Source of the DNA: Streptomonospora salina
Lineage (GTDB): Bacteria; Actinomycetota; Actinomycetes; Streptosporangiales; Streptosporangiaceae
Reading direction: 5' to 3'
NCBI RefSeq assembly: GCF_014204715.1
Contig: NZ_JACHLY010000001.1
Span: 3,370,501 to 3,434,500 of the forward strand
Length of the DNA: 64,000 nucleotides
Part shown: one piece after another, positions 18,819 to 43,361 of the stretch
Position numbering within the stretch: position 1 is the stretch's first letter
Layout: the number at the start of each line of letters is the position of its first letter
Notes under the pieces: model-generated
What the model was told of the DNA's origin: nothing
The model's database searches: none
Seen by the model: the letters and a program-made list of their open reading frames with translations, nothing else
Position numbers and translations under genes: made by a program

Positions 18819-20366
18819 TCACCCTTCGCAGACCTTCTCCCGGGCGGTGGCGGGCCCGGAGCCGGTCCCGCCGCCGGACCGCTGGGACGACGTGGACGCG
18901 GCCTGCTGCGTCTCGGCCTGTTCCGGCTCGGGCGGCTGCACCTCGCGGTAGTTGAACCCGATCACGACCTGGATCCGCTCGCCGAGCTCCTCGTCCTTCT
19001 CCAGGGACGAGCCCGGGACCGCCTCGGCCACCACGGCGGCCTCCTCCTTGTTGCCCGGGCCGTAGCGCAGCACGGTCTCGGGCACCTCGGTGCTGGACCA
19101 GTTGCGCGCGGCCGAAGGCACCCGGAAGCCGGCGTCGCCGAAGGCCCGGTCGGCTTCGGCGCCGAGCCCGGTGATACCGGTACCGTTGAACACTTGCAGG
19201 TGGATGTCCCCGGGGTCGGGAGACGTGCCGGACCTCCCCGCGGACGCCGACGCGTCCCCGCCGTCGCCGCCGCCGAGCGGCTTGTCGGCGTTGATCCGGG
19301 CGAACATGTCCGAGGCCTGCCGGCGGTCCCAGGTCACCGCGACGTCGCCGTGCGGAGTCCAGAAATCGGTCCGCTCGACGGGCACCGTGGTGAAGGTGAC
19401 GTCGCCCAGCCCGATGCCGCGCAGCTGGCCGGTCAACGCGTTGATGGCGCCGGTGTCCAGGCTCTCGTCCACGGTGACCGAGTTCAGCGCCCGGTCGACG
19501 AAGTCGCCGAAGCGCTGCGGGTTCGACAGGGTGTCGGTGCTCGCCGCGGTCTCCAGCATGGCCGACAGGACCTGCTGCTGGCGGTCGATCCGGTCGAGGT
19601 CGCCGCCGGCGGTGGCGCGGGTGCGGGCGAAGGCCAGCGCCTCCGTACCGTCGACCCGGTGCGTGCCCGCCGCCATGTCCAGGTGGGCTTTCTCGTCTTC
19701 GATGGGCGCGGGCAAGCAGACCTCGATACCGCCGAGGCCGTCGACCATGTCCACGAACCCGGTGAAGTCGACTTCGATGTAGTGGTCGATGCGCACACGG
19801 GTGGCCGACTCGACGGTGCGCACCGCCAGAGACGGCCCGCCCAGCGAGTAGGCGGCGTTGATCTTGTTCTCGCCGCGTCCGGGGATGTCGACCCAGGAGT
19901 CGCGCGGAATACCCACGACGGTGACGTGGTCGCGGTCGTCGTCGAGGTGCACGAGCATCATGGTGTCCGAGCGCTTGCCCTCGGCCCGTCCCACGCCCAG
20001 CTCGTTCTGCCGGTCCCGCTCCATGCCCTCGCGTGTGTCCGAACCGATGACCAGGAAGTTCAGTGCCCCCTGGGCGCCCTCCTCGGGGCGGTCGCCGTCG
20101 GCCAGCCCGCCGAAGACGTCGAAGCGGTCGAGCTGCCCGGATACCCAGCCGGTGAGCGACCACGCGGTGCCCGACGCCAGCAGGACCAGAACCGACAGCG
20201 CCCCGGCCGTCAGCAGCGCCGCGCGTTTTCGCCGGACGGGGCCGCTGGGAGGGGTGAAGCCGCGCCGGGGATCGGGAGGTGTGGGAGCGGAACGCATGCG
20301 GGCAAACCCGCCGTCGCGTCCGGCTCGCTCTCCGCTGCGCCGGTCCTCGCCCGGGCGGTCGCTCAC
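18819..20366 (-). CDS. LytR-CpsA-Psr (LCP) family cell-wall polymer ligase
   Basis: LCP proteins transfer lipid-linked glycopolymers onto peptidoglycan outside the membrane. The 515-residue protein has a cytoplasmic N-terminus of about 50 residues, one membrane helix (AALLTAGALSVLVLLASGTA) and the LCP domain: NFLVIGSDTREGM, KRSDTMMLVHLDDD, VVGIPRDSWVDIPG, ENKINAAYSLGG, HYIEVDFTGFVDMVDGLGG, ALAFARTRATAGGDLDRI. A C-terminal LytR_C domain (IHLQVFNGTGITGLGAEADR) follows. The conserved Arg and Asp residues for pyrophosphate binding are present. GTG 20366 was selected for GGAGGG just upstream. A second LCP gene lies at 41916-43361, at the far side of the polymer cluster. Confidence 0.93.
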   Translation of the reverse strand: MSDRPGEDRRSGERAGRDGGFARMRSAPTPPDPRRGFTPPSGPVRRKRAALLTAGALSVLVLLASGTAWSLTGWVSGQLDRFDVFGGLADGDRPEEGAQGALNFLVIGSDTREGMERDRQNELGVGRAEGKRSDTMMLVHLDDDRDHVTVVGIPRDSWVDIPGRGENKINAAYSLGGPSLAVRTVESATRVRIDHYIEVDFTGFVDMVDGLGGIEVCLPAPIEDEKAHLDMAAGTHRVDGTEALAFARTRATAGGDLDRIDRQQQVLSAMLETAASTDTLSNPQRFGDFVDRALNSVTVDESLDTGAINALTGQLRGIGLGDVTFTTVPVERTDFWTPHGDVAVTWDRRQASDMFARINADKPLGGGDGGDASASAGRSGTSPDPGDIHLQVFNGTGITGLGAEADRAFGDAGFRVPSAARNWSSTEVPETVLRYGPGNKEEAAVVAEAVPGSSLEKDEELGERIQVVIGFNYREVQPPEPEQAETQQAASTSSQRSGGGTGSGPATAREKVCEG

Positions 20367-20837
20367 AGCACCCTCCGTCCGCTCGCCGCTGGAAGGCCTG
20401 CGCGGGCGCAACGGGGCCGGCGGCGCGGCGGGGAGCGGCCACTGCGCACCGTCTCCCGCCGCTCCGCGGGCGCTTTCACCGCCTGCCCCCGGTCGCGTGC
20501 AGGTCCACCGGCCCTCACGTTCGTTCCTCTAGGTTGTCACCGAATCCACCGATGGGTCGCCCGCTGTCACCTCTCGGCGTGTTGCCCCCTTCCGGATGAA
20601 CGGGGCCCGATGCCGCGTCTTTTCGCCCCCGGTAGGACGCGCGCGGCGGGCGCACGGTTCGGTCCGCGATGCGCACCGCGGGTTCGGGGGCGGGCGCGGT
20701 CGCGCGCGGCGAGGCGCGGCCCGCAGGGGTGTCCCGGGTCGCCCTGGCCGGGCGCCGCCGGGCAGTGCAGTACCGTATCGACTGCGAAGCCGCGACCCGG
20801 CCTCGCGCTCCCTGCCGCCCGACCGTTGGAATCGCCC
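20367..20837. other. Divergent promoter region between LCP and GT2 genes
   Basis: This 471-base spacer must carry promoters for both genes. TGTCACC occurs twice (near 20535 and 20567), but I could not define a promoter. The plus-strand frame open through it has no recognisable protein features. Confidence 0.4.
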
Positions 20838-21842
20838 GTGACCTGGCCGGCCGTATCCGTCGTCATGCCCGTGCTCAACGAGGAGCGCCACCTGGCGTCC
20901 GCTGTTAGCCACGTCCTCGCCCAGGACTACCCGGGCGAGCTCGAGATCGTGCTGGCGGTGGGCCCCTCCACCGACCGCACCCGCGAGGTCGCCGCCGAGA
21001 TCGCCGCCGCGGACGGGCGGGTGAAGGTCGTGGACAACCCCACCGGCCGCACGCCGGCGGGTCTCAACGCAGCGATCGACGCGTCCTCCCACGGAATCGT
21101 CGCGCGCATCGACGGGCACTCGATGATGCCCTCCGACTACCTCGCCGTGGCCGTAGGCACCATCGGGGAGACCGGTGCCGACAACGTCGGCGGCATCATG
21201 GCCGCCGAGGGCGAGACCCCGTGGGAGAAGGCGGTGGCCGCCGCCATGACCTCCCGGGTCGGAGTCGGCAACGCCCGCTTCCACACCGGCGGCTCGGGCG
21301 GCCCCGCCGACACCGTGTACCTGGGCGTCTTCCGCCGCTCGGCTCTGGAGCGCGTGGGCGGCTACGACGTGGCGTTCCTGCGCGCCCAGGACTGGGAGAT
21401 GAACCACCGCATCCGCACCACCGGAGGCACGGTCTGGTTCGAGCCGCGGATGCGGGTCTCCTACCGGCCCCGGCCCGGCGTGCGCGCGCTGGCCAAGCAG
21501 TACTTCAACTACGGGCGCTGGCGCCGCGTGGTGTCCCGACAGCACAAGGGCACCATCAACCTGCGCTACCTGGCGGCGCCGACCGCCGTCTGCGCGATCG
21601 CGCTGGGGCTGGCGGGCGGCTTCGCGTTCTGGCCCGCCTGGCTCGTGCCCGGCAGCTACGCCGCGGCGATCACCGCCGCCTCGCTCCCGCTCGGCCGAGG
21701 GCTTTCCGCCAAGGCGCGCCTGAGCATCCCGGCCGCGCTGGCCACCATGCACATGGCCTGGGGGGTGGGCTTCCTCACCAGCCCGCCCGGCCTCGGCGCC
21801 GACTCCCGCGTCGCCCGCGCGAACCGTGAGCAGCACGCCTGA
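20838..21842 (+). CDS. GT2 family glycosyltransferase (ExoA-like)
   Basis: The 334-residue protein starts with VSVVMPVLNEERHLASAV, the nucleotide-sugar-binding strand of GT-A enzymes. It has LAVGPSTDRTREVA, NPTGRTPAGLNAAID, ARIDGHSMMPSDY as the DxD-like metal site, and the acceptor/catalytic segment AFLRAQDWEMNHRIRTTGG. Two or three C-terminal hydrophobic helices follow (TAVCAIALGLAGGFAFWPAW). It resembles ExoA-type succinoglycan transferases. GTG 20838 was selected because similarity begins immediately after it; the upstream frame is open but non-homologous. The donor sugar and linkage cannot be predicted. Confidence 0.88.
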   Translation: MTWPAVSVVMPVLNEERHLASAVSHVLAQDYPGELEIVLAVGPSTDRTREVAAEIAAADGRVKVVDNPTGRTPAGLNAAIDASSHGIVARIDGHSMMPSDYLAVAVGTIGETGADNVGGIMAAEGETPWEKAVAAAMTSRVGVGNARFHTGGSGGPADTVYLGVFRRSALERVGGYDVAFLRAQDWEMNHRIRTTGGTVWFEPRMRVSYRPRPGVRALAKQYFNYGRWRRVVSRQHKGTINLRYLAAPTAVCAIALGLAGGFAFWPAWLVPGSYAAAITAASLPLGRGLSAKARLSIPAALATMHMAWGVGFLTSPPGLGADSRVARANREQHA

Positions 21843-21927: not shown

Positions 21928-22716
21928 TCACCGCTTCTGCCGCCTGGCCTTCAACGCGGCCGCCACGCCCGGGACGTCGTCGACGACGACCGCGTCCACG
22001 CCCGCGTCGGCGAACCGGGCGGCGTCGACGGGGCCGGGGCACCAGGTGACCACGTCCAGGCCCGCGCGGTGGGCGACACCGACCGTGTAGGCGACGTCGC
22101 GGCGGCCGGGACGCTCGGGCTCGCCGGTGAGGCCGAAGGACCGGGCGTCGACCGCCACCAGGCCGCAACCGAGCCCCGCCGCCCCCGCCACAGCCTGGTC
22201 CACGGGATTGCGCACGAACGGCATCCACGCCAGCGGAATCTCCGGAGCCCCCTCCCGCACCGCCAGCAGAACGGCAGGATCGAATGAGCAGACGAACACG
22301 TGCTCGCGGCCGGCGGCGGCGCGGCGGCGCTCGGCCTCGCGGCGCAGCGCGGGCAGCAGCAGCCCGGCGGTGCGCCGCCGCGGCGGGTCGACCGCGTCCT
22401 CCATCACCGACTTGACGTCGACGTCCACCCCCGCGCACACGGGGATGGCCGCGAACGCCTCGTCCAGCCGCAGCAGCCCCGCATCGCGGCACTCCCGCGC
22501 CGGGAGGTCGGCGATCGTCCGGCCGTCCGGCAGCGCCTCGTCGTGGTGGACCACCAGCGCGTCGTCGGCGGTGCGCCGTACGTCGATCTCGACCCACTGC
22601 GCACCGGAGCCGACCGCGGCCAGGTACGACTCCGCGGAGTTCTCCCGGTAGTCCGACGCCGACGAGCGCCCCGCGCCGCGGTGCCCGATGACCTCGGGCG
22701 CGCTGAACACCGTCAC
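21928..22716 (-). CDS. Glycerophosphodiester phosphodiesterase family protein
   Basis: The 262-residue TIM-barrel enzyme has VIGHRGAG with catalytic His12, the metal-binding ExD in WVEIDVRRTADDALVVHHDEAL with the second catalytic His, VDVDVKSVMEDAV, HVFVCSFDPAVL and VVTWCPGPVDAARFADAGVD. No signal peptide is visible, so it is probably cytoplasmic. GTG 22716 overlaps the TGA of the upstream cytidylyltransferase by four bases and has AGGAGG 7 bases upstream, so the two genes are translationally coupled. Such enzymes hydrolyse glycerophosphodiesters or trim glycerol-phosphate polymers. The context suggests recycling of polymer precursors, which is inference. Confidence 0.88.
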   Translation of the reverse strand: MTVFSAPEVIGHRGAGRSSASDYRENSAESYLAAVGSGAQWVEIDVRRTADDALVVHHDEALPDGRTIADLPARECRDAGLLRLDEAFAAIPVCAGVDVDVKSVMEDAVDPPRRRTAGLLLPALRREAERRRAAAGREHVFVCSFDPAVLLAVREGAPEIPLAWMPFVRNPVDQAVAGAAGLGCGLVAVDARSFGLTGEPERPGRRDVAYTVGVAHRAGLDVVTWCPGPVDAARFADAGVDAVVVDDVPGVAAALKARRQKR

Positions 22717-23546
22717 CCGCGGGCCTCCTGGTGCCGCTCCCCGTCCCGGGGCGGGCCGGCGACCGGGCCGCCGCGCACCCGCATCAGGGTCTCGGCGATC
22801 TCGACGTCGCCGGGATTGGTGACTTTGATGTTGGACTCGTCGCCGGGCACGATGCGCACCTGCGCGTCGGGCAGGTAGTCCAGCACCACGCCGCAGTCGT
22901 CGGTGGCCGCCAGCCCGGGGGCGGCCAGCGCCCGGCGGTAGGCCTCGCGCACCACTCCCAGCCGGAACCCCTGCGGGGTCTGCATGCGGCGCAGCGAGGC
23001 CCGGGGCGGGACGTTGCGCAGCACCTCGGCGCCGCCGGAGTCCGGAGCGATCTCCACGACCGTGTCGCCGGCGGGCACGGCCACGCCTACCGCGTCGGCC
23101 TCGGCCAGCGCGCCCACGCACCGGCCGATGACCTCCGGGGTCACCAGCGGGCGGGCGGCGTCGTGCAGGAGGACCAGGTCGTCGTCGCCGCGGTGCTCCA
23201 GCGCGCGCAGCGCCGCCGCCGACGTCGCGGTGCGGTCCGCCCCGCCCGGCAGGACGGCCGAGACGCGGTCCGGACACGTCCGGTCGGCGATCTCCCGGGC
23301 CTCGTCCAGGTGCTCGGGCACCATCAGCACGATGACGTCGTCGACCTCGGGTGCGGCGCAGAATGCGGCCAGGGCGTGCTCCAGAACGGGGCGCCCGGCC
23401 AGCGGCAGCAGCTGCTTGGGGGAGCCCCCGCCCATGCGGGCGCCGACGCCGCCGGCCAGCACCGCCGCCGTGACGTGGGCGCGCGCGCCCGCCTGGGGAC
23501 GCGTGCCCGCCTGGGGACGCGCGGGCGTGGCGGAGTCCTGCGGCAT
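22713..23546 (-). CDS. IspD/TarI-type cytidylyltransferase
   Basis: The 277-residue enzyme transfers CMP from CTP to a polyol phosphate. It shows VTAAVLAGGVGARMG and SPKQLLPLAGRPVLEHAL (CTP binding), VLLHDAARPLVTPEVI, RRMQTPQGFRLGVVREAY and DESNIKVTNPGDVEIAETL. The fold covers both IspD (methylerythritol 4-phosphate) and TarI (ribitol 5-phosphate). Its setting, coupled to a phosphodiesterase and divergent from a TagGH-type transporter, favours a teichoic-acid role over isoprenoid synthesis. Canonical actinobacterial ispD normally sits beside carD and ispF, which are absent. Start MPQDSATP at 23546 has AAAGGA upstream. The N-terminal PQAGTRPQAGARA is a short repeat with low complexity. Confidence 0.85.
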   Translation of the reverse strand: MPQDSATPARPQAGTRPQAGARAHVTAAVLAGGVGARMGGGSPKQLLPLAGRPVLEHALAAFCAAPEVDDVIVLMVPEHLDEAREIADRTCPDRVSAVLPGGADRTATSAAALRALEHRGDDDLVLLHDAARPLVTPEVIGRCVGALAEADAVGVAVPAGDTVVEIAPDSGGAEVLRNVPPRASLRRMQTPQGFRLGVVREAYRRALAAPGLAATDDCGVVLDYLPDAQVRIVPGDESNIKVTNPGDVEIAETLMRVRGGPVAGPPRDGERHQEARG

Positions 23547-23779: not shown

Positions 23780-24607
23780 GTGGCGTCGCGGTTGCTGGCC
23801 CTCTGGCACAGCCGGCGGATCGTCGGCCTGCTCGTGCGGCGGGACCTGAAGGTCCGGTACCAGGGGTCCGTTCTGGGCTACGCCTGGTCGATGCTGGAGC
23901 CCCTGGCGATGGCGGGGATCTACTTCTTCGTCTTCGGCCTCGTCTTCGACACCGACCGCGGCGTTCCCGGCGGCGGCGACGCGCCCGGCGGCTACCTGCT
24001 GTTCCTGATCTCGGGGCTGCTGCCGTGGCTGTGGTTCTCCCAGTCGCTGAACCGGGCGCCCAACGCGATCCTCAGCCACAGCAGGCTGATCACCACGCTG
24101 CGCGTCCCCCGGGAGGTCTTCCCGGTGCAGGAGGCCGCCGCCAAGTTCGTCGACTACCTGCTGACCTGGCCGGTGCTGCTGGCCTTCGTCGCCGTGCTGG
24201 GCGGGCGCACCAGCGCCCAGGGGCTCATGGTGTGGCTGCCGCTGGCGGTCACCGCGCAGCTGGTGCTCACCGTGGGGACGACCCTGCTGCTGGCGACGGT
24301 GAACGTGCTCGTGCGCGACGTCGAACGGATCGTGCGCATCCTCAACCGGGTGCTGTTCTACGCATCGGCCATCATCATCCCCTCGGGGCTGGTGCTGGAT
24401 TCCGGCCGCTTCCCCGCCTGGTTCACGACACTGTTCCAGCTCAACCCGCTGTTGGGGATCTTCAAGATGCATCACGCCGTCTGGTACCCGGCCGACGCCC
24501 CCGGGGCCCTGGCCCTGACGGCGAGCGTCGCGGGACCGGTCCTGGTCCTGGCCGCCGGCTGTGCGACGTTCCGGCGCCTGGAGGCGCCGGTACTGAAGGA
24601 GCTGTGA
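23780..24607 (+). CDS. ABC-2 type polysaccharide export permease (TagG/Wzm-like)
   Basis: The 275-residue membrane protein starts with the amphipathic segment LLALWHSRRIVGLLVRRDLK, followed by VRYQGSVLGYAWSMLEPLAM, the classic Wzm/TagG N-terminus. About six membrane helices follow. LRVPREVFPVQEAAAKFVDY marks the cytoplasmic loop that meets the ATPase. It should export an undecaprenyl-linked polymer with the ATPase encoded next. GTG 23780 has GGAGG upstream, and the stop overlaps the ATPase start by one base. It is divergent from the cytidylyltransferase gene. Confidence 0.93.
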   Translation: MASRLLALWHSRRIVGLLVRRDLKVRYQGSVLGYAWSMLEPLAMAGIYFFVFGLVFDTDRGVPGGGDAPGGYLLFLISGLLPWLWFSQSLNRAPNAILSHSRLITTLRVPREVFPVQEAAAKFVDYLLTWPVLLAFVAVLGGRTSAQGLMVWLPLAVTAQLVLTVGTTLLLATVNVLVRDVERIVRILNRVLFYASAIIIPSGLVLDSGRFPAWFTTLFQLNPLLGIFKMHHAVWYPADAPGALALTASVAGPVLVLAAGCATFRRLEAPVLKEL

Positions 24608-25401
24608 TGGGCGATCCCGTCATCGAGGCCGAGGGCCTCGGCATCCGGTTCCGCGCCGACCGCGGGCGCCGGCGCAGCCTGCGCGACCTGGTGCTCGGCG
24701 TCCGGCGCGCCCCGGGCACCGACGGCTTCTGGCCGGTGCGCGACGTCTCCTTCCGGATCCGCCGGGGCGAGTGCGTGGGCATCGTCGGCAAGAACGGGAC
24801 CGGGAAGTCCACGCTGCTCAAGCTGATCGCCGGCGTGCTCATCCCCGACGAAGGCAGGGCCGGGGCCCGCGGCCGGGTCGCTCCGCTGCTGGAGCTGCGG
24901 GCGGGGTTCAACGGGCGGCTCACCGGCCGCGAGAACATCTACCTGGTCGGTTCCCTGCACGGGATGGCCCGACGGGAGATCGACGCCCGCTTCGACGCGA
25001 TCGTGGACTTCGCCGGCCTGCGCGAAAGCGACATCGACACGCCGGTGCGGCACTACTCCAGCGGAATGAAGGTCCGGCTCGGTTTCGCGCTGGTCGCCCA
25101 GTTGGACCACCCGGTGCTGTTGGTCGACGAGGTGCTGGCCGTGGGCGACCGGGAGTTCCGGGAGAAGTGCTACCGCACCATCGAGCGGATGCTGGCTCAG
25201 GACCGGACGATGGTGCTGGTCTCGCACAGCGAGGACGACCTGCGGCGCTTTTGCACCCGCGGGCTGTACCTCAAGGACGGCGGTCTGGCGCTGGACGCCG
25301 GGATCGACGCCGTGCTGGAGGCCTACCGCCGCGACCGCGCCGCCGAAGAACCGGAGGCACCGGAGAGCGGCGCGCCGGACACGGCCCGGGAAGGCACGTG
25401 A
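24607..25401 (+). CDS. Polysaccharide export ABC transporter ATPase (TagH/Wzt-like)
   Basis: The 264-residue ATPase has Walker A GKNGTGKST, the TagH/Wzt-typical LLELRAGFNGRLTGRENIYL, signature HYSSGMKVRLGFAL, Walker B PVLLVDEVLAVGD and the H-loop VLVSHSEDDL. There is no C-terminal carbohydrate-binding extension beyond the acidic tail, so it belongs to the chain-length-independent type. The start ATG shares its first base with the last base of the permease stop (TGATG), so the two are translationally coupled. Together they export the wall polymer across the membrane. A hairpin terminator follows. Confidence 0.94.
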   Translation: MGDPVIEAEGLGIRFRADRGRRRSLRDLVLGVRRAPGTDGFWPVRDVSFRIRRGECVGIVGKNGTGKSTLLKLIAGVLIPDEGRAGARGRVAPLLELRAGFNGRLTGRENIYLVGSLHGMARREIDARFDAIVDFAGLRESDIDTPVRHYSSGMKVRLGFALVAQLDHPVLLVDEVLAVGDREFREKCYRTIERMLAQDRTMVLVSHSEDDLRRFCTRGLYLKDGGLALDAGIDAVLEAYRRDRAAEEPEAPESGAPDTAREGT

Positions 25402-25643: not shown

Positions 25644-26618
25644 GTGTCAGACGTCGACGCTCACGCCGGCCGCGGAGGCGGCGGGCGCCCCGGCGCTCCC
25701 GGCGGCCGGCCGCGCCGGGGCCGGATCAGCCCGTCGGCCATGACGCGGACCGGGCTCGTGCTGGCCGTCGCGGCCGCCGTGTGGTTCACCGACGGGAGCC
25801 TGCGCGGCGCCGTGGTCGGGTCGCTCCTGCTGGGCGCCGTCATCACCACCGACCTCCTCGCCGTCCGGCTGCGCGGCGGGCGCCGCGACCGCCTGGACCT
25901 GTGGCTGGCGCTGGTGCTGGGGCGGCTGCGCGAGTACATCGTCTACGCCGGGCTCGCCGTCGGCGGCACGGCCGCCGGCGTGCCCGACGCGTGGGCCTGG
26001 GCGGCGGGCGCGCTCATCGCCCTCGCGCTTCGCGACTCCGTGGCGGCCGCCCGCGGCGCCGACGTCGGCCGTCCCGAGTGGACGCCGGAGTCCGGCCTGC
26101 CGCGGCCCATCGAGGCGGTCGACCCCAGTCGGCCCCCGGACGACGGGGCACCCGGCGACGCCTCGCTCACCGCCGAGCTCCTCGGCGACCCCGATCCCCC
26201 GTCCGCAACGGGGGGTGACGGCCGCAACGAGAGCACCGGCGGTGCCTTCTCCGGCATCCGCACCGTTCCCAAAGGCGCCCCATGGCCGGGCTGGTCCGCG
26301 GCCCGCGCCGAAACCCCGGGTGCGCCGCCCGGCCCCGGCCGCGGCGCCGACGGCTCCGCGGCCCCGCCGGGGACCGGCGCTACCGGCGGTGACGGGCCAC
26401 TCGCCGGCGGTTCCGGCACCGCCGGCCGCCCCGGGGCCCGTCCGCGGGCTGCCCTTCTCGCGCGGGTCGCCGCCTTCCCCCAAGCCGCGCGCTTCGGCAC
26501 GGTGGCCCTGACGATAACGATTTGGGACACCCGGGTGACGTTCATCGCACTGATCGTCGGGTGTGCCTTCGCTGCCACCGCCGAACTCACCGGCGGCCCC
26601 GACGACACCGCGAGGTGA
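25644..26618 (+). CDS. Degenerate CDP-alcohol phosphotransferase-like membrane protein
   Basis: The 324-residue protein has ISPSAMTRTGLVLAVAAAVWF, a matching first helix pair, then LRGGRRDRLDLWLALVLGRL and REYIVYAGLAVGG. These align with the start and end of the CDP-alcohol phosphotransferase core (a family form is REYVVYAGLA). The catalytic pattern D-x2-D-G-x2-A-R-x8-G-x3-D-x3-D is largely lost: only Asp70 remains, with Ala73 and Val74 at the D-G positions. A disordered linker (about residues 130-280) rich in Pro/Gly/Ala precedes two C-terminal helices. GTG 25644 follows GAGAGGGG. It is four bases upstream of the DUF5941 gene. Elsewhere the two modules can be fused in one protein. It is probably non-catalytic. 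Confidence 0.65.
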   Translation: MSDVDAHAGRGGGGRPGAPGGRPRRGRISPSAMTRTGLVLAVAAAVWFTDGSLRGAVVGSLLLGAVITTDLLAVRLRGGRRDRLDLWLALVLGRLREYIVYAGLAVGGTAAGVPDAWAWAAGALIALALRDSVAAARGADVGRPEWTPESGLPRPIEAVDPSRPPDDGAPGDASLTAELLGDPDPPSATGGDGRNESTGGAFSGIRTVPKGAPWPGWSAARAETPGAPPGPGRGADGSAAPPGTGATGGDGPLAGGSGTAGRPGARPRAALLARVAAFPQAARFGTVALTITIWDTRVTFIALIVGCAFAATAELTGGPDDTAR

Positions 26619-26622
26619 GCCG

Positions 26623-27261
26623 ATGGGTGCTTCCCCACCGCCCGGCACCGGCATGGATCTGCGCTATCTCCGCGGCGACGGGCACCTGAGCACGGCCCTG
26701 GGCCGGCTCGCCGCCGGCGGGTTCCCCCCGCTGCTGCCCACCCTGGCCGGGGCCCTGGTTGCGGGTGTGCTGATGGCGACGGGCCTCAACCACCTCACAG
26801 GCATTACCCTGTTCGCACCGGTGGCCGCACTGCTGCTGTCCGGCGTCGCCTCTGGGCACCCGCACGACGGCCGGTTCGACCGGCTGGTCCCGCCCCTGCT
26901 GCGTGCGACGGAGTACCTTTATCTCCTGGCGCTGGGCTACGGGTCCGGTGTCCCCGGGCCACTGGTGTTCGTACTCGTGGCCGCGGTCGCCCTGCACCAC
27001 GCCGACTCCGTGCACCGCACCCGCACCGGTCTGCGCCCGCCCGCTTGGCTCATGCGGGCGATGCTCGGGTGGGACGGGCGGATGGTGGTTCTGGCCGCAG
27101 GCGGGGCACTGGGCTGGCTCCCGTTCACCTACGGTGTACTGACGGGTTACCTTGCGGTGCTGCTCGTGTGGGAGTCCACGACGAGCTGGCTCGCGGCGCC
27201 GATCGCGGAAGCACAGGCTCCGCGCAACGAATCGGGAGGCGTGGACGCCTCCACGATGTAA
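26623..27261 (+). CDS. DUF5941 domain membrane protein
   Basis: The 212-residue membrane protein has motifs I recognise from DUF5941: SGHPHDGRFDRLVPPLLRA, TEYLYLLALGYGSG, LHHADSVHRTRTGLRPP and MLGWDGRMVVLAAG, with about six hydrophobic helices. In other actinobacteria this domain ends large proteins that also carry nucleotidyltransferase and CDP-alcohol phosphotransferase modules. Here those modules are encoded separately just upstream and downstream. The start MGASPPPG at 26623 follows GAGGTGA. It sits in a tight plus-strand operon (25644-29812). The activity is unknown; a role in making a lipid-linked or CDP-linked polyol is inference. Confidence 0.75.
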   Translation: MGASPPPGTGMDLRYLRGDGHLSTALGRLAAGGFPPLLPTLAGALVAGVLMATGLNHLTGITLFAPVAALLLSGVASGHPHDGRFDRLVPPLLRATEYLYLLALGYGSGVPGPLVFVLVAAVALHHADSVHRTRTGLRPPAWLMRAMLGWDGRMVVLAAGGALGWLPFTYGVLTGYLAVLLVWESTTSWLAAPIAEAQAPRNESGGVDASTM

Positions 27262-27277
27262 GGAGGAACACGCCTAC

Positions 27278-28009
27278 ATGCTCGGTATGGTTCTTGCCGC
27301 AGGAGCGGGCCGCCGACTGCGCCCCTACACCGACACCCTGCCCAAGGCCCTGGTGCCGGTCGATGGTGAGACCACCATCATGGACATTTCGTTGCGCAAC
27401 CTCGCCGCAGCGGGCCTGACCGACGTGGTCGTGGTCGTGGGCTACCGCGCCGAGGCCGTCGAGCAGCGCAAGCGGGAGATGGAGCGCCGGCACGGCGTCG
27501 CGATCACCCTCGCTTACAACGACAAGGCCGAGGAGTGGAACAACGCCTACTCCTTGTGGACTGCGCGCGAGCACTTCTCCGAAGGCGTCCTCCTCGTCAA
27601 CGGCGACACCGTCCACCCGGTGAGCGTGGAAAAGACGCTACTGGCCGCACGCGGACCGGAACTGCTCCTCGCGGTGGACAGCGCTAAAACTCTGGCCGAC
27701 GAGGAGATGAAGGTGACCCTGGACGGGTCCGGCCACCTCAGCCGCATCACCAAGCTCATGGACCCCGCCGACGCCGCCGGCGAGTACATCGGCGCCACCC
27801 TCATCGAGGGCTCGCTGTCGGACCGCCTCGCCGACGCGCTCCGGGCGACCTGGGAGCGCGACCCGCAGCTCTACTACGAGGACGGCTTCCAGGAGCTGGT
27901 CGACCGCGGCGGCAAGGTCGGCGTCGCTCCGATCGGCGAGGTCGACTGGGTCGAGGTCGACGACCACGACGACCTGAACCGCGCCAGGGAGATCGCATGC
28001 CGCTACTAG
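27278..28009 (+). CDS. Nucleotidyltransferase of the phosphocholine/polyol cytidylyltransferase type
   Basis: The 243-residue enzyme has GMVLAAGAGRRLRPYTDTLP and KALVPVDGETTIMD (nucleotide binding), VVVVGYRAEAVEQ, LAYNDKAEEWNNAYSLWTA, LLVNGDTVHPVSVE with the metal Asp, and a C-terminal EVDWVEVDDHDDLNRARE with the second metal Asp. The NNAYSLW and WVEVDDHDDL motifs are typical of LicC-like and polyol-phosphate cytidylyltransferases. It probably forms a CDP-alcohol. ATG 27278 lies after AAGGAGG. The stop overlaps the next gene, a glycerol-1-phosphate dehydrogenase homolog, by 13 bases. This suggests that enzyme's product as the substrate. Confidence 0.85.
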   Translation: MLGMVLAAGAGRRLRPYTDTLPKALVPVDGETTIMDISLRNLAAAGLTDVVVVVGYRAEAVEQRKREMERRHGVAITLAYNDKAEEWNNAYSLWTAREHFSEGVLLVNGDTVHPVSVEKTLLAARGPELLLAVDSAKTLADEEMKVTLDGSGHLSRITKLMDPADAAGEYIGATLIEGSLSDRLADALRATWERDPQLYYEDGFQELVDRGGKVGVAPIGEVDWVEVDDHDDLNRAREIACRY

Positions 28010-29064
28010 CCCGCATGATCAACGCCCCGCTGGCGATCGACGTCCGACAGGGCGCCATCGCTTCGCTGGGCTCTCTGCTGGCCGACCGCCGCATCGCCAA
28101 CGAGGGCCGCATCGCCGTGGCCGTGGGGCCCGGCCAGGGCGCCCAGATCGCCGCCGAGCTCGATCTGCCCAACTGCGAGGTCTTCAAGGTCGACGGCGGA
28201 AGCGTCGACGTGGGCACCGAGCTGGGCAAGAAGCTGCGCTCGGGGGCCTACGAGGCCGTGGCCGGCATCGGCGGCGGCAAGACCGTCGACGTCACCAAGT
28301 ACGCCGCGTCCATGGCCGGAATCCCCATGGTCGCCGTGGCCACGAACCTCTCCCACGACGGCATCGCCTCGCCGGTCAGCTCGCTGGAGCACGAGAGCGG
28401 CAAGGGCTCCTACGGGGTCACCATGCCGGTCGCGGTGGTGGTCGACGTCGACTACGTGCGCGCCGCGCCCCAGCGCCTGGTGCGTTCGGGCGTCGGCGAC
28501 GTGGTGAGCAACCTGTCGGCCATCGCCGACTGGGAGCTGGCCGGCCGGGAGCAGGGCGAGCCGGTCGACGGAATGGCCGTCACCTTCGCCCGCACCGCGG
28601 CCGAGGCGATCGTCAACCGCAGCGACACCGTCGATTCCCAGGAGTTTCTGACCGCCCTCGCCGAGGCGCTGGTGCTGTCCGGCATGGCGATGTCGGTGGC
28701 GGGCTCCAGCCGCCCGGCCAGCGGCGCCTGCCACGAGCTGCTGCATGCGATCGACCAGCTTTACCCGGGGACCAGCAACCACGGTGAGCTCGCCGGTATC
28801 GGCGCCCTCTACGCCTACTTCCTGCGCAGCCGGTACCAGGGGTTCGGCGAGGCGCGCATGTACGAGATCCGGGCCTGCATCCGGCGGCACGGCCTTCCCG
28901 CCCTGCCCGCCGACGTCGGTCTGGACGAAGAGCAGTTCGCGCGAGCGGTGGCCCACGCCCCCGCCACCCGGCCGGGACGCTACACCGTGCTGGAGCACCT
29001 GGCCCTTTCGGACGACGACATCAGGCGGAGTGTGGCGGAATATGTCCAAGCCATCGATCGCTGA
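27997..29064 (+). CDS. sn-Glycerol-1-phosphate dehydrogenase-like enzyme (AraM/EgsA family)
   Basis: The 355-residue protein belongs to the iron-containing alcohol dehydrogenase superfamily. It has GGGKTVDVTKYAAS (NAD(P) binding, residues 92-105), VAVATNLSHDGIASPVSSL, SGVGDVVSNLSAIADWEL with candidate metal ligand Asp168, ACHELLHAIDQL with His246/His250, and SNHGELAGIGA with His262. AraM/EgsA enzymes reduce DHAP to sn-glycerol-1-phosphate, the stereoisomer used for archaeal lipids. Gene overlaps with the upstream cytidylyltransferase (13 bases) and downstream phosphotransferase (23 bases) argue for one pathway. The exact substrate could also be another polyol phosphate. Confidence 0.85.
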   Translation: MPLLARMINAPLAIDVRQGAIASLGSLLADRRIANEGRIAVAVGPGQGAQIAAELDLPNCEVFKVDGGSVDVGTELGKKLRSGAYEAVAGIGGGKTVDVTKYAASMAGIPMVAVATNLSHDGIASPVSSLEHESGKGSYGVTMPVAVVVDVDYVRAAPQRLVRSGVGDVVSNLSAIADWELAGREQGEPVDGMAVTFARTAAEAIVNRSDTVDSQEFLTALAEALVLSGMAMSVAGSSRPASGACHELLHAIDQLYPGTSNHGELAGIGALYAYFLRSRYQGFGEARMYEIRACIRRHGLPALPADVGLDEEQFARAVAHAPATRPGRYTVLEHLALSDDDIRRSVAEYVQAIDR

Positions 29065-29812
29065 GATCCGCTCGGGCGGGCAGCCCGAGGGAATCAAGCA
29101 GCGGCTGAACGAGGAGCACTGGGCCGGTCGGCTCTACATGCGCGACCTGTCGCCCTACTTCAGCACGGTCTTCGTGCGGTTGGGTGTGCCGCCCAACCCC
29201 ATCACCTACATGATGATGGGCTCGGGCGTGCTGGCGGGCGTCGTCCTGGCGCTGGGCGGCTTCTGGGCCGCCGTGGCGGCGGTCGTCCTGGTGCAGTTGT
29301 ACCTGCTGCTGGACTGCGTCGACGGCGAGGTCGCCCGGTTCACCGGGCGCACCAGCGTCGCCGGGATCTTCCTCGACCGGATCGGCCACTACCTGGCCGA
29401 GGTCGCCCTGATCATCGGGCTCGGCGTGCGCGCCCAGGGCGGGCTCGACGCCGGCGGATGGGTGGTCGCCGGCATGGCCGCCGCACTCGGCGCCGCCCTG
29501 ATCAAGGCGGAGACCGACAACGTGGTGGTGGCCCGCGCCAAGGCCGGACTCTCGGAGAAGATCGCCGACGAGCAGCTCCAGCCCCGCTCGCCGCGGCTGG
29601 GCACGGCCCGCAAAGCCGCTTCGGCGCTGCGGTTCCACCGGGTCATCCAGGCCGTCGAGCTGTCGCTGCTGGTGCTGGGCGCCTCCGTGATCGACCTGGT
29701 GCGCGGCGACCTGATGGCGACCCGGGCACTCGTTGCGGTGTGCGTCGCCGTCGCCGCCGTGCAGACGATCCTGCACATGGTCAGCGTGCTGGCGTCGCGG
29801 CGCCTGGAGTAG
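29042..29812 (+). CDS. CDP-alcohol phosphotransferase family membrane protein
   Basis: The 256-residue membrane enzyme should replace CMP of a CDP-alcohol with an acceptor alcohol. The catalytic segment is YLLLDCVDGEVARFTGRT followed by SVAGIFLDRIGHYLAE. Asp91, Asp94, Gly95, Ala98, Arg99, Gly108 and Asp112 match the family pattern D-x2-D-G-x2-A-R-x8-G-x3-D-x3-D. The fourth Asp, the general base in characterised members, is His116 here. About six membrane helices are present. ATG 29042 lies inside the end of the dehydrogenase gene (23-base overlap). It ends the operon 25644-29812 and is the only member with a nearly complete active site. Confidence 0.88.
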   Translation: MSKPSIAEIRSGGQPEGIKQRLNEEHWAGRLYMRDLSPYFSTVFVRLGVPPNPITYMMMGSGVLAGVVLALGGFWAAVAAVVLVQLYLLLDCVDGEVARFTGRTSVAGIFLDRIGHYLAEVALIIGLGVRAQGGLDAGGWVVAGMAAALGAALIKAETDNVVVARAKAGLSEKIADEQLQPRSPRLGTARKAASALRFHRVIQAVELSLLVLGASVIDLVRGDLMATRALVAVCVAVAAVQTILHMVSVLASRRLE

Positions 29813-30115
29813 CCCGCGCCGCCCCCGGGGTGCCCCGGCGCCGCACCGCGCCGCCGGACACCCCGGAACCCTCGGAGCGGCGGCCCGGGGACGCGCTGCT
29901 TTATCATTCCGTTAGCCGTGATGTGCAACGGTCACCTTCTATCCACCATGCGTCCACGTTTACGAACGGTTCCCATGACCAGTCCAGGCGTGCCCAGCGA
30001 AACCGGCCCCGCGGCCTCCGAGCCGTTCGCCTCCGCGCCGCAGCGCAGCGCGGACGGCGCGGAGGCGCCGTCCCGTAGCGTCGGCGGTGAGGATTCGGCC
30101 GGGCACGGAGGTGAG
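29813..30115. other. Gap before the GT2 gene
   Basis: This 303-base spacer contains in-frame ATGs at 29918, 29949 and 29975 that could lengthen the next protein by up to 66 residues. None has a good ribosome-binding site, and the encoded stretch is low-complexity Ser/Ala/Gly. I treat it mainly as leader. Confidence 0.4.
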
Positions 30116-30979
30116 GTGCGCTTGAAGACCTCCTGCGTCATCCTGACGATGGGGACGCGACCGGCCGAGCTGCGTCGCGCGGTCACGAGCGTCCTGGAGC
30201 AGGAAGGCGCCGACCTGGAGCTGATCGTGGTCAGCAACGGCGCCGAGCTGCCCCCGCTGCCCGACGGCGTCATCACGGTCATGCTGGACGAGAACATCGG
30301 CATCCCCAAGGGGCGCAACGCGGGGGTCGCGGCGGCCAGCGGCGACATCGTCCTGTTCCTCGACGACGACGGCTGGTACCGCTCGCGCGACCTCGTCCGC
30401 CACGTCAGCCGCCGCTTCGAATCCGACCCCGGGCTGGGCATCGTCACGTTCCGCATCGTCGACCCCGACGGCGGCCCCGACCAGCGCCGCTACGTCCCGC
30501 GCCTGCGGGTCGGCGATCCGCTGCGCTCCAGCCGCGTCACCACGTTCCTGGGCGGCGCGGCCGCCGTGCGCAGAACCGCGTTCGACGAGGCCGGCGGGCT
30601 TCCGGACGGGTTCTTCTACGCCCACGAAGAGAGCGACCTGGCCTGGCGCGTGCTGGACGCCGGTTACGACATCGAGTACGACGCCGAGGCGGTGATGTAC
30701 CACCCCTCGACCCACCCCAGCCGGCACGAAGACTTCTACCGGCTCAACGCGCGCAACCGGGTCTGGCTGGTGCGGCGCAACCTGCCGTGGCCGCTGGCGC
30801 TGGCCCATCTGGGCGTGTGGATCTCCATCACCGTGGCGCGGGAGCGCTCGCTGCCGGAGTTGCGCGCGTGGTTCCGCGGGTTCCGCGAAGGCTGGCGCGG
30901 CGATTGCGGCCCGCGCAGCCCCATGCGGTGGTCGACGGCCTGGCGCATGATGCGCATCGGCCGCCCGCCCGTCGTCTGA
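30116..30979 (+). CDS. GT2 family glycosyltransferase (rhamnosyltransferase-like)
   Basis: The 287-residue GT-A enzyme begins KTSCVILTMGTRPAELRRAV. It has VVSNGAELPPLP, ENIGIPKGRNAGVAAASGDI, the metal site VLFLDDDGWYRSRDL, FLGGAAAVRRTAFDEAGGLP, and FFYAHEESDLAWRVLDAGYD with the acceptor ED-like motif. The C-terminus has an amphipathic WISITVARERS region. GTG 30116 was chosen for GGAGG four bases upstream; longer starts from 29975 or 29918 are possible. It follows the CDP-alcohol operon on the same strand and converges on a GT4 gene. The sugar donor is unknown. Confidence 0.85.
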   Translation: MRLKTSCVILTMGTRPAELRRAVTSVLEQEGADLELIVVSNGAELPPLPDGVITVMLDENIGIPKGRNAGVAAASGDIVLFLDDDGWYRSRDLVRHVSRRFESDPGLGIVTFRIVDPDGGPDQRRYVPRLRVGDPLRSSRVTTFLGGAAAVRRTAFDEAGGLPDGFFYAHEESDLAWRVLDAGYDIEYDAEAVMYHPSTHPSRHEDFYRLNARNRVWLVRRNLPWPLALAHLGVWISITVARERSLPELRAWFRGFREGWRGDCGPRSPMRWSTAWRMMRIGRPPVV

Positions 30980-36111: not shown

Positions 36112-37350
36112 ATGTCGTCAGCACCGGCCGCCCGTTCCGGCAGCGACCGAGCCGACCGTCCCGCCGAAGGCGCGGAGGCTCCCGGGCATGCGGCCGAGGC
36201 GGTGCGCTCCGCGCCCGCCGACCGGCCGGGCTCCGCCGAGATCGTGCATATCGTCGGCGCGCGGCCGAACTTCGTCAAGGCCGCGCCGGTGGTGGCGGCC
36301 CTGGAGGCCCGCGGGCTGCGCCAGTCGGTCGTGCACACCGGCCAGCACTACGACGACCGCATGTCGGCGGTCTTCTTCCGCGAGCTGGGACTGCCCCGGC
36401 CCGACGTCGACCTCGGTGTGGGCTCGGGCTCGCACGCCGAGCAGACCGCCGCGCTGATGACCGGCCTGGAGCGGGAGTTCATCGAGCGTTCACCGGGACT
36501 CGTCGTGGTCTACGGCGACGTGAACTCCACGCTGGCCGCCGGGATGGTCGCCGCCAAGCTCCACATCCCGGTCGCCCACGTCGAAGCCGGGCTGCGCTCC
36601 TTCGACTGGTCGATGCCCGAAGAGGTCAACCGCCGCCTCACCGACCAGCTCGCCGACGTGTGCTTCGCCACCAGCCCCGAAGCCGTCGGCCACCTCGCCG
36701 CCGAGGGGGTCGCGGTGGACCGCGTGCATCTGGTCGGGAACCCGATGATCGACACGCTGCTGGCGCGCCTCGACCGCTTCGACACCGCCGCCCTGCGCGA
36801 GCGCCTGGACCTTCCCGGCTCCTACGTCGCCGCGACCCTGCACCGGCCCGCCAACGTCGACGACCCCGAAACGGTCGCGCGCCTGGTCGCCCGCCTGCAC
36901 GAGGTCGCCGACCAGATCGACGTCGTGATGCCCGTGCACCCCCGGGGCCGGGCGTCCCTCGACGCCGCCGGCCTGGCCGAGCACCCGCGTATGCACCTGC
37001 TGGAACCGCTGGGCTACATCGACTTCGTGGCGCTGGTGCGCGGCGCCACCGCCGTGGTCACCGACTCCGGCGGAGTCCAGGAGGAGACCACGATGCTGGG
37101 TGTCCCCTGCCTGACCCTGCGGCCCAACACCGAACGCCCCATCACCATCACCCACGGCAGCAACCGGCTCGTCACCGACTCCGAACTCCCCGGCCTGGTC
37201 TCCAAGATCCTGGCCGGAGCGGGCACCGACACCGCGGCCCTGGCCGCCGTCCCCCCGATGTGGGACGGCGGCGCCGGCGAGCGCATCGCCACCGTCCTCG
37301 CCGACTGGACGTCCGGCGTGCCGGCGCCGGGACCCCGCCGCAGCGCCTGA
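36112..37350 (+). CDS. wecB: UDP-N-acetylglucosamine 2-epimerase (non-hydrolysing)
   Basis: The enzyme interconverts UDP-GlcNAc and UDP-ManNAc, supplying WecC. The 412-residue protein has, after a 40-residue disordered N-terminus, IVHIVGARPNFVKAAPVVAA, VVHTGQHYDDRMSAVFF, VYGDVNSTLAAGMVAAKLHI, VAHVEAGLRSFDWSMPEEVN, TLHRPANVDDPETV, TDSGGVQEETTMLGVPCLTL and RPNTERPIT. All are conserved in the family. ATG 36112 has GAAGGGA 6 bases upstream. It starts a plus-strand group with the 37395 and 39310 genes, and is divergent from the GT4 gene at 34331-36019. Confidence 0.94.
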   Translation: MSSAPAARSGSDRADRPAEGAEAPGHAAEAVRSAPADRPGSAEIVHIVGARPNFVKAAPVVAALEARGLRQSVVHTGQHYDDRMSAVFFRELGLPRPDVDLGVGSGSHAEQTAALMTGLEREFIERSPGLVVVYGDVNSTLAAGMVAAKLHIPVAHVEAGLRSFDWSMPEEVNRRLTDQLADVCFATSPEAVGHLAAEGVAVDRVHLVGNPMIDTLLARLDRFDTAALRERLDLPGSYVAATLHRPANVDDPETVARLVARLHEVADQIDVVMPVHPRGRASLDAAGLAEHPRMHLLEPLGYIDFVALVRGATAVVTDSGGVQEETTMLGVPCLTLRPNTERPITITHGSNRLVTDSELPGLVSKILAGAGTDTAALAAVPPMWDGGAGERIATVLADWTSGVPAPGPRRSA

Positions 37351-41915: not shown

Positions 41916-43361
41916 CTAACTGCACTGCTGCTTGGATTCCTCCGCTGTGGTTCCGTCGACGCCGCCGGGCGAGGAGCCGCCACCGCTGCCCGCGGTGCTG
42001 GTGAAACCGTCCCAGTCCTGGGCGAGGACCAGCTGCACGGTGTCGCCGAGGCTGGTGTTCTCCACGACGGTGGCGTTGACGGCTTCGTCGGCGAGGGCCT
42101 GGGCGTGGGCCTTCTTGCCGGACCCGTAGTAGATCGTGGTCTGGGCGGGGATCTGCACCGGGTTGCCGGTGTTGGCGACCTGGAAGCCTTCCGTGGTCAG
42201 CCACTGGCCCACCTGCTCGGCCAGCCCCGGAGTGCCCTCGCCGTTGAGCACCTCCACGGAGACGTCGCCGGGTGCGACCTGCTCCTGCTGCTCCTCGTCG
42301 CCGTCGCCGTCGCCGCCGCCCCCGTCGCCGCCGTCGTCGTCGCCGGTGAGGCTCTGGTCCTTGGCGATGGCCTCGAACAGCTGCGAGGCCTGCGGCTGGG
42401 TGAGAGCCAGGCGGTTCTCGTTCTCGGGAGCCTGGCCGTTGGGGGTGGTGACGAAGTTGATGTTGCCGAGGTCGACTTCGCGCATCGCGATGGCGATGTC
42501 GGACATGACATCCAGCGTCAGCTCGTCGTCGGTGGTCATGGTCTCGGTGACCGAGCTGAGGAAGCCGGTGATGTTGCTCGGGCGGTTGAGGATCTCGCCC
42601 TGCATGACCTGGTTGAGCATCGCGCCGAGGAACTCCTGCTGGCGCTTGATGCGGCTGACGTCGCTGCCGTCGCCCTGCCCGTAGCGCGAGCGCATGTAGC
42701 CCAGCGACTCCTCGCCGTCGAGCGTCTGCTCGCCGGCGTCCAGGTGCAGCTTGGCGTCCTCGTCGTCGATGGGATCGGGGATGCACATCCGCACGCCGCC
42801 GATGGAGTCGACGATGCCTTTGAACCCGGTGAAGTCGACGCTGACGAAGTGGTCGATGCGGATGCCGGTGACGGACTCGACGGCCTTCCACTGGCACTGC
42901 ACGCCGCCGAGGGACAGCGGCGAGTTGATCATGCCGCGCTGGGCGGCCATGCCGGCGGTGTCGCCCTGGCCCTCGCACGCGGGCAGGTCGACGATCAGGT
43001 CGCGGGGCAGGTTGACCAGCGTCGCGCGGCCGTTGTTGGGAGAGATGTGCGCGACGATCAGGGTGTCGGGGCGCTGTCCCTCGGCCTCGCCGTAGTCCGC
43101 GTTCTCACCGGTGCGGACGTCCGAGCCGATCACCATGATGTTCATCGCGCCCTCGACCCTGTTCGGCCGGTCGCCGAAGGAGTCGGTGTCGATGTTCTGC
43201 TGTTCGATGTTGCCGTAGATGTCGTAGTAGGCGGCGTAGGCGGTGAGGCTGGTGCCGATCACCGCCGCGGTCGTCAGAACCGCGATCCAGCCGCCCACGG
43301 ACAGGCTCTTGCGCGCTGTGCGGCCCTTCGCCGAACCTCGCGATGAGCGTTTTCCGGGCAT
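41916..43361 (-). CDS. LytR-CpsA-Psr (LCP) family cell-wall polymer ligase
   Basis: The 481-residue protein has a basic N-terminus and one membrane helix (VGGWIAVLTTAAVIGTSLTA). The external LCP domain follows: NIMVIGSDVRTGENADYG, RPDTLIVAHISPNNGRAT, LVNLPRDLIVDLPACEGQ, HFVSVDFTGFKGIVDSIGG, SLGYMRSRYGQGDGSDVSRI. An acidic Asp/Gly linker (about residues 335-355) precedes a LytR_C domain (VSVEVLNGEGTPGLAEQVGQ). It should transfer a lipid-linked polymer to peptidoglycan. It shares the same layout with the LCP at 18819-20366 but is clearly divergent in sequence, so the two may handle different polymers. ATG 43361 is the natural start. Confidence 0.93.
   Translation of the reverse strand: MPGKRSSRGSAKGRTARKSLSVGGWIAVLTTAAVIGTSLTAYAAYYDIYGNIEQQNIDTDSFGDRPNRVEGAMNIMVIGSDVRTGENADYGEAEGQRPDTLIVAHISPNNGRATLVNLPRDLIVDLPACEGQGDTAGMAAQRGMINSPLSLGGVQCQWKAVESVTGIRIDHFVSVDFTGFKGIVDSIGGVRMCIPDPIDDEDAKLHLDAGEQTLDGEESLGYMRSRYGQGDGSDVSRIKRQQEFLGAMLNQVMQGEILNRPSNITGFLSSVTETMTTDDELTLDVMSDIAIAMREVDLGNINFVTTPNGQAPENENRLALTQPQASQLFEAIAKDQSLTGDDDGGDGGGGDGDGDEEQQEQVAPGDVSVEVLNGEGTPGLAEQVGQWLTTEGFQVANTGNPVQIPAQTTIYYGSGKKAHAQALADEAVNATVVENTSLGDTVQLVLAQDWDGFTSTAGSGGGSSPGGVDGTTAEESKQQCS

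Follow-up and report, generated by a model that had tools for sequence, protein, structure and literature searches.

A cytidylyltransferase-dehydrogenase gene pair as a candidate source of CDP-sn-1-glycerol for teichoic acid in Streptomonospora salina and other actinobacteria

In a wall-polymer cluster of Streptomonospora salina, three overlapping genes encode a cytidylyltransferase-like protein (CyT), a dehydrogenase of the EgsA/AraM type associated with sn-glycerol-1-phosphate (G1PDH) and a CDP-alcohol phosphotransferase (CAPT) homologue (CAPT1). They lie in a 64,000-nt stretch (the window) of the 5.6-Mb genome, whose completeness is 99.98%. The explanation that we favour, at a probability of roughly 0.58, is that the CyT-G1PDH pair supplies CDP-sn-1-glycerol for a glycerol teichoic acid made via TagF, in place of TagD. 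We read the pair as such a supply line because of the family and metal ligands of G1PDH, the LicC-type fold of CyT, the near-total co-occurrence of the two genes, the presence of TagF together with the absence of TagD, the gene order in one surveyed genome (G292) and the absence of PcrB. Families, gene order, co-occurrence and the missing TagD match are computed, and from them we infer all substrates, the enantiomer and the polymer.

In the proposed pathway, G1PDH would convert dihydroxyacetone phosphate to sn-glycerol-1-phosphate, and CyT would combine this with CTP to give CDP-sn-1-glycerol. This nucleotide would replace the TagD product as the feed for TagF-family polymerases, which would yield a glycerol teichoic acid of the enantiomer opposite to that in the wall teichoic acid (WTA) of Bacillus. 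TagGH transporters and LCP ligases serve in the export and attachment of teichoic acids, and the chain would here be exported by the TagGH-type transporter and attached by the LCP ligases; alternatively, it may also be put on a lipid to form lipoteichoic acid (LTA), as has been suggested in print for Streptomyces. CAPT1, joined in relatives by CAPT2, a protein that includes DUF5941, would belong to the same envelope pathway, our guess for its step being the lipid or the linkage unit.

The CyT-G1PDH pair and its two proteins

The survey sample comprised 196 genomes of the class, which are not independent of each other, and thresholds of E<=1e-30 for G1PDH and E<=1e-20 for CyT were applied. G1PDH was found in 48 of these genomes (7 families, 20 genera) and CyT in 47, with both genes in 47 genomes and CyT alone in none; the single genome with G1PDH and no CyT (G302) has its match 119 nt from the contig start. 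CyT lies directly upstream of G1PDH in 47 of the 52 G1PDH copies, 42 of these 47 keep the 13-nt overlap of the two genes (27997-28009 in the window), and the full trio falls within 5 kb for 40 of the 52 copies. The tight unit is CyT plus G1PDH, i.e., the first two genes only. A scan of named loci, reaching close relatives only, found the trio retained in 21 of 21, with G1PDH identities of 77-95%; the nearest named relatives by G1PDH belong to Streptomonospora (95% identity), and Thermobifida fusca (L021) carries the trio. The fact that the trio is kept in all 21 loci and the 13-nt overlap in 42 of 47 pairs means that the arrangement is not due to chance. In a wider sample of the phylum (246 genomes), G1PDH was matched at E<=1e-15 in 47, often weakly.

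A preliminary description of the window had placed three overlapping genes here, the first cytidylyltransferase-like and the second for an AraM/EgsA-type dehydrogenase, in a teichoic-acid-type setting with TagGH-type export and LCP ligases. The open reading frames (ORFs) were re-found, free of internal stops and with overlaps of 13 nt and, between G1PDH and CAPT1, 23 nt (29042-29064). Both enzyme assignments agree with the family matches described below, CyT appearing to be of an alcohol-phosphate type and a near-obligate partner of G1PDH, and the setting is present as well, with TagG at its model cut-off and TagH below it.

G1PDH matches the Pfam family Fe-ADH_2 (PF13685, E 2.3e-25) and, over residues 6-342, the NCBIfam model PRK00843 for NAD(P)-dependent glycerol-1-phosphate dehydrogenase (E 1.4e-71), its 241 bits missing the equivalog cut-off of 413; we therefore claim membership of the wider EgsA/AraM family only, not of that equivalog. 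Among solved structures the top matches are the G1PDHs 4rgq and 4rfl (E 8e-47, residues 82-344), third comes 3ce9, deposited as a glycerol dehydrogenase, and the fourth and fifth are G1PDHs. Residues D168, H246 and H262 align with 4rgq chain positions 181, 259 and 280 to give a full Asp/His/His metal site, and in a 24-row alignment both His are invariant and the Asp nearly so. We take the archaeal zinc ligands to be D148, H226 and H247, a numbering that is supported by its constant offset of 33 to the 4rgq chain positions at all three ligands.

CyT matches the NTP_transferase family (PF00483, E 4.4e-14), and its sequence matches to solved structures begin with LicC (1jyk), followed by 4y7t (a nucleotidyl transferase), 4jd0 and 6pd1. 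The top five fold matches of its predicted model (pLDDT 88) comprise LicC (1jyk/1jyl, CTP:phosphocholine), PntC (6pd2, a phosphonate-specific cytidylyltransferase) and the T. maritima inositol-1-phosphate CTP transferase (4jd0). Residues G9, G11, R13, P22, K23 and D110 are invariant in the 24-row alignment, and CyT matches what we take to be the cytidylyltransferase signature (G-x-G-x-R...PK, GD), which sugar nucleotidyltransferases carry as well. From sequence and predicted model it is likely that CyT uses CTP and an alcohol phosphate, and sn-glycerol-1-phosphate is the suggested substrate because of the link to G1PDH.

TagF polymerases and TagD in genomes with the pair

TagF was taken as PF04464 at E<=1e-50 and TagD as TIGR01518 at E<=1e-25. 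Among the matches listed, TagF is present in 47 of the 48 G1PDH genomes vs. 23 of the 148 others, and TagD is present in 0 of 48 vs. 15 of 148. Within the 70 genomes with strong TagF (matches listed), TagD occurs in 0 of 47 with G1PDH vs. 8 of 23 without it, and each of the 7 families with the pair includes strong TagF. In genome G292 (locus L099), CyT, G1PDH, TagG, TagH and TagF are consecutive on one strand, the last encoding a 945-aa protein with GT2 and PF04464 domains. In at least four G1PDH genomes, S. salina not among them, the distance between TagF and a G1PDH is no more than 7 kb (G337 via a second copy without CyT), a count that took part of the TagF matches and for which a rough uniform model gives a chance estimate of 0.001-0.015. 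S. salina itself has one TagF match (G000:C1:958119-959186, L064); the protein is about 1226 aa long, PF04464 covers residues 868-1223, and the first 860 residues show no Pfam match. Its best TIGR01518 match genome-wide reaches only 20.8 bits (E 1.3e-3, cut-off 165) over model positions 1-65 of 125.

Several points weigh against a CyT-G1PDH supply line. The Fisher values for the two TagF comparisons (1.4e-26 for TagF with and without G1PDH, 5e-5 for TagD within the strong-TagF genomes) ignore kinship, with 48 genomes in 7 families and 20 genera, and overstate independence. TagD was judged by E-value alone, 0 of the 196 genomes reaching the TIGR01518 cut-off; at a looser 1e-10, 6 of the 48 G1PDH genomes show TIGR01518 matches of 59-66 bits, all six in one Streptomyces-like genus. 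The proteins behind these weak matches in two of the six genomes (L104, L105) look by sequence like small cytidylyltransferases, which could be a second source, delivering CDP-3-glycerol, in some Streptomyces-like genomes. The TagF gene of S. salina lies 2.4 Mb away from the pair, i.e., outside the cluster, and G311 has G1PDH and CyT with no PF04464 match at E<=1e-5 among the matches listed. Strong TagF is also found in 23 genomes without G1PDH, 15 of which are without TIGR01518 at 1e-25 as well; other CDP-polyol sources therefore exist. With regard to the enzymes, besides the PRK00843 score of G1PDH given above, the best NCBIfam model for CyT is the sugar-nucleotide enzyme AglF (74.5 bits, cut-off 400), and enzymes of that kind appear from rank 6 of its fold list onward. 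Teichoic acids of Nocardiopsis, as far as the cited passage goes, comprise glycerol and ribitol types, including poly(ribitol phosphate) (PMC6801904).

Three further arrangements were observed around these genes. In two genomes without G1PDH, a divergent CyT-like gene is coupled with a TagF-like gene near CAPT1, CAPT2 and TagGH (L068, 14054-16008; L069, 1988-3959), which again speaks for a teichoic pathway whose CDP-alcohol supply can be exchanged. Between TagH and CAPT2, the same loci encode a conserved protein of about 385 aa (L068, 11210-12364; L069, 5533-6702) with no Pfam match, the start of which resembles what we take to be a sulfotransferase motif. A second G1PDH copy, without CyT, is found at G337:C1:856399-857448 (L101), at most 7 kb from TagF-family genes.

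CAPT1 and the competing explanations

The preliminary description had proposed a self-contained route in which the three genes make, activate and transfer the sn-1 enantiomer. The making and activating parts gain support from the protein families and from the co-occurrence of CyT and G1PDH in relatives (47 of 48 genomes), while the transfer part is not supported, CAPT1 being loosely linked: it occurs in 44 of the 48 G1PDH genomes and in a further 22 that have no G1PDH, 66 in all. (These counts use 68 rows at E<=1e-40 out of 87 listed, leaving out 19 weaker rows, G192 and G396 among them; 68 genomes would be counted with these two.)

That all three genes nonetheless form one route, with CAPT1 using CDP-1-glycerol to place Gro-1-P (glycerol-1-phosphate) on a lipid or a sugar independently of TagF, seems to us unlikely; in its favour are the conserved order and overlaps, the 44 of 48 genomes, the 40 of 52 copies with a compact trio and the CAPT fold. 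CAPT1 matches CDP-OH_P_transf (PF01066) at E 2.6e-5 and 25 bits (cut-off 22), and its predicted model (pLDDT 78) has the CAPT fold, nearest to AF2299 and the PIP synthases; of the 166 fold matches, two reach E<=0.001 (best 5.9e-4, TMq 0.50). The motif of these enzymes, which we take to be D-x2-DG-x2-AR-x8-G-x3-D-x3-D, is incomplete in the window protein, the last Asp being His116; this fourth motif residue is His or Ala in all 47 CAPT1 rows of our tree vs. Asp in all of its 21 CAPT2 rows and in the 7 other CAPTs of S. salina. CAPT1 is therefore filed as a CAPT homologue. His116 might serve as the base, but the Ala of the Streptomyces-like copies suggests dependence of CAPT1 on a partner in those genomes.

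The genomes also speak against CAPT1 as the dedicated transferase of such a route. Four of the 48 G1PDH genomes are without a good CAPT1 match, among them G292, where the pair stands beside TagF and CAPT1 has no match in the 17 kb of L099 and none at E<=1e-10 genome-wide. A point in favour of the three-gene route is that in G192, also without a good match, another CAPT directly follows the pair. A quick-method CAPT tree of 68 rows (47 His/Ala, 21 Asp), built with the motif residue disregarded and containing one long CAPT1 branch, separates the His/Ala and Asp rows into two fully supported clades. The idea that CAPT1 tracks G1PDH in evolution was rejected, since the CAPT1 tree interleaves genomes with and without G1PDH, with 6 changes.

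CAPT2 consists of a nucleotidyltransferase-like part, a CAPT domain and DUF5941 (the latter two are fused in L056 and L057); of the 49 loci scanned, 21 have a copy with the full motif. In the window it is split into a decayed domain and a separate DUF5941 gene. With His116 in CAPT1 and CAPT2 decayed, the window cluster therefore has no complete-motif CAPT; the full motif is likewise missing from 20 of the 21 named loci (some of them short), but L022 and Streptomyces-like genomes have it. The nucleotidyltransferase-like part of CAPT2 was considered as a second CTP enzyme and rejected, its signature being lost by eye in 11 copies, also in genomes without CyT; Pfam still detects the domain in L080. 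Self-trained gene calls clashed with the BLAST positions in several loci (e.g., L073, L074, L086) and were set aside there.

More doubtful is the explanation that the dehydrogenase makes a different alcohol phosphate, in which case the CDP-alcohol would not be CDP-glycerol. The superfamily of G1PDH is versatile, the protein scores below the PRK00843 cut-off, and in the two genomes of L068 and L069, which have no G1PDH, a CyT-like gene is coupled with a TagF-like one. This has to be set against the G1PDHs at the head of its structure list (4rgq and 4rfl, with 3ce9 third), the full metal site and the presence of a Streptomyces protein in the part of a published EgsA/AraM alignment cited here (PMC5059525).

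It is less probable again that the product of the pair is a glycerophospho-compound, either soluble or a lipid, the co-occurrence with TagF being a coincidence of lineage. CAPT1 and CAPT2 are both closest to inositol-phosphate CAPTs, and CDP-1-glycerol is known from the archaeal route to glycerophosphoinositol (PMC8262930), which involves a CAPT like that of IPCT-DIPPS. Those systems (AF2299 and relatives) resemble ours in having a cytidylyltransferase and a CAPT of the same folds and, in the archaeal case, CDP-1-glycerol, and they differ in their product, an inositol solute or lipid; in S. salina the genes are separate, G1PDH is present, the cluster is one for wall polymers and CAPT1 is without the fourth Asp. 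The setting of TagG, TagH, LCP and TagF genes, with strong TagF in all 7 pair-holding families, argues for teichoic acid instead. Finally, an archaeal-type ether lipid, as made through AraM and PcrB in B. subtilis with a bacterial G1PDH of the same family, is hardly credible and was rejected, PcrB (PF01884) being found in 0 of 196 genomes with positive controls (B. subtilis and four archaea), and the partner gene here being a cytidylyltransferase.

Setting in the window and relation to known systems

The features of the window are collected in Table 1. GT2b is present in 20 of the 21 named loci, the remaining locus ending before its position, and farther out in the window are glycosyltransferases and two UDP-sugar dehydrogenases. 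The gene at 22713-23546 is the best of three IspD-model matches in the genome (GlmU ranks second, and the third match, at 20.7 bits, is below the cut-off); judged by sequence, it is probably the housekeeping IspD and probably the sole IspD homologue. A CDP-ribitol route through this IspD/TarI-like gene was set aside for that reason; a double role is conceivable.

Table 1. Features of the wall-polymer cluster, in window coordinates (nt).
Feature	Position	Strand	Length	Assignment and basis
CyT	27278..28009	+	243 aa	Proposed CTP:sn-glycerol-1-phosphate cytidylyltransferase, alcohol-phosphate type; PF00483, LicC-like sequence and fold
G1PDH	27997..29064	+	355 aa	Putative EgsA/AraM-type sn-glycerol-1-phosphate dehydrogenase; PRK00843, 4rgq/4rfl, D168/H246/H262
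CAPT1	29042..29812	+	256 aa	CDP-alcohol phosphotransferase homologue; PF01066; fourth motif Asp replaced by His116
Decayed CAPT2 domain	25740..26618	+	292 aa	No Pfam match; BLASTP to L022 CAPT2 E 3e-19; catalytic motif residues lost
DUF5941 protein	26653..27261	+		PF19365 E 2e-28 (ORF from 26563); in Streptomyces-like genomes forms the CAPT2 C-terminal part
TagG-type ABC-2 permease	23780..24607	+		PF01061, 26.9 bits, equal to cut-off (ORF from 23636)
TagH-type ATPase	24607..25401	+		NCBIfam teichoic acid export ATPase E 2e-48, 165 bits, below cut-off 538 (ORF from 24025)
GT2a glycosyltransferase	20451..21842	+		PF00535 E 1.6e-20; start codon unsure
GT2b glycosyltransferase, after CAPT1	29990..30979	+		PF00535 (ORF from 29918)
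LCP ligase	18819..20366	-		PF03816, PF13399
Second LCP ligase	41916..43298	-		PF03816, PF13399
Glycerophosphodiester phosphodiesterase family protein (GDPD)	21928..22716	-		PF03009 E 4e-19
IspD-family cytidylyltransferase, beside GDPD gene	22713..23546	-		PF01128 E 1.5e-46
UDP-GlcNAc 2-epimerase	36112..37350	+		PF02350 E 7.6e-99 (ORF from 36055)

According to the part of the source cited here (PMC7086022), the WTA of B. subtilis is built of Gro-3-P and its LTA of Gro-1-P drawn from phosphatidylglycerol, the two being distinguished by GlpQ, which is specific for Gro-3-P. The supply line proposed for S. salina shares with the TagD-TagF route to Bacillus WTA the use of CDP-glycerol, a TagF-family polymerase and TagGH-type export (PMC7086022, same part); unlike that route, S. 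salina has no TagD match, and its CyT has an NTP_transferase/LicC fold and is tied to G1PDH, a tie that predicts the sn-1 enantiomer. The preliminary description knew of no characterised wall polymer built this way, which needs qualifying: a Gro-1-P polymer is known in LtaS-type LTA such as that of B. subtilis, but its unit comes, in the passage cited, from phosphatidylglycerol outside the cell and not from CDP-1-glycerol. For Streptomyces, a 2026 synteny study (PMC13118837) has already published the gene order araM, tagG, tagH, CAPT, GT2 and sugar-phosphate nucleotidyltransferase as teichoic-associated. This is the same gene set, tied to teichoic acid biosynthesis; the synteny passage deals with synteny and duplication only and gives neither an enzyme step or enantiomer nor a TagF/TagD pattern or CAPT motif, and the CDP-1-glycerol reading is not found in it.

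A literature search found, within its coverage, no description of CDP-1-glycerol outside the archaeal glycerophosphoinositol route, and no prior report of the CDP-1-glycerol reading of the pair in the open-licence PMC literature, which is thin on teichoic-acid chemistry journals. The pneumococcal CDP-2-glycerol pathway (presumably Gtp1-3) would be a parallel in that a dedicated enzyme set provides an unusual CDP-glycerol for a surface polymer, though we take it to involve Gro-2-P and other enzymes.

A broader version of the proposal, which we put forward tentatively and hold to be doubtful, is that one CDP-sn-1-glycerol pool from CyT and G1PDH feeds both WTA and LTA in a large share of the actinobacteria (including the Streptomyces-like and Thermobifida/Nocardiopsis lineages), with a glycerol WTA that mirrors that of Bacillus and with CAPT1 and CAPT2 placing the chain on lipid, giving LTA without LtaS. 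Two statements in the passages cited count for the favoured explanation as well: the polyglycerolphosphate chain of Streptomyces hygroscopicus LTA closely resembles that of its WTA, and as of 2011 no clear LtaS orthologue was known from actinobacteria (PMC3196553). For one actinobacterium, Bifidobacterium bifidum, an LtaS homologue is annotated in a paper of 2025 (PMC12286996, in part), and the present analysis included no LtaS search.

If the CyT-G1PDH pair does supply CDP-sn-1-glycerol to TagF, the walls of many soil actinobacteria would be built with a handedness opposite to that of the textbook Bacillus polymer and would be resistant to GlpQ-type enzymes. It would also offer a testable route to LTA in Streptomyces and Thermobifida without a clear LtaS orthologue (PMC3196553, passage cited above), and the pair would be an enzyme source for enantiopure CDP-1-glycerol.

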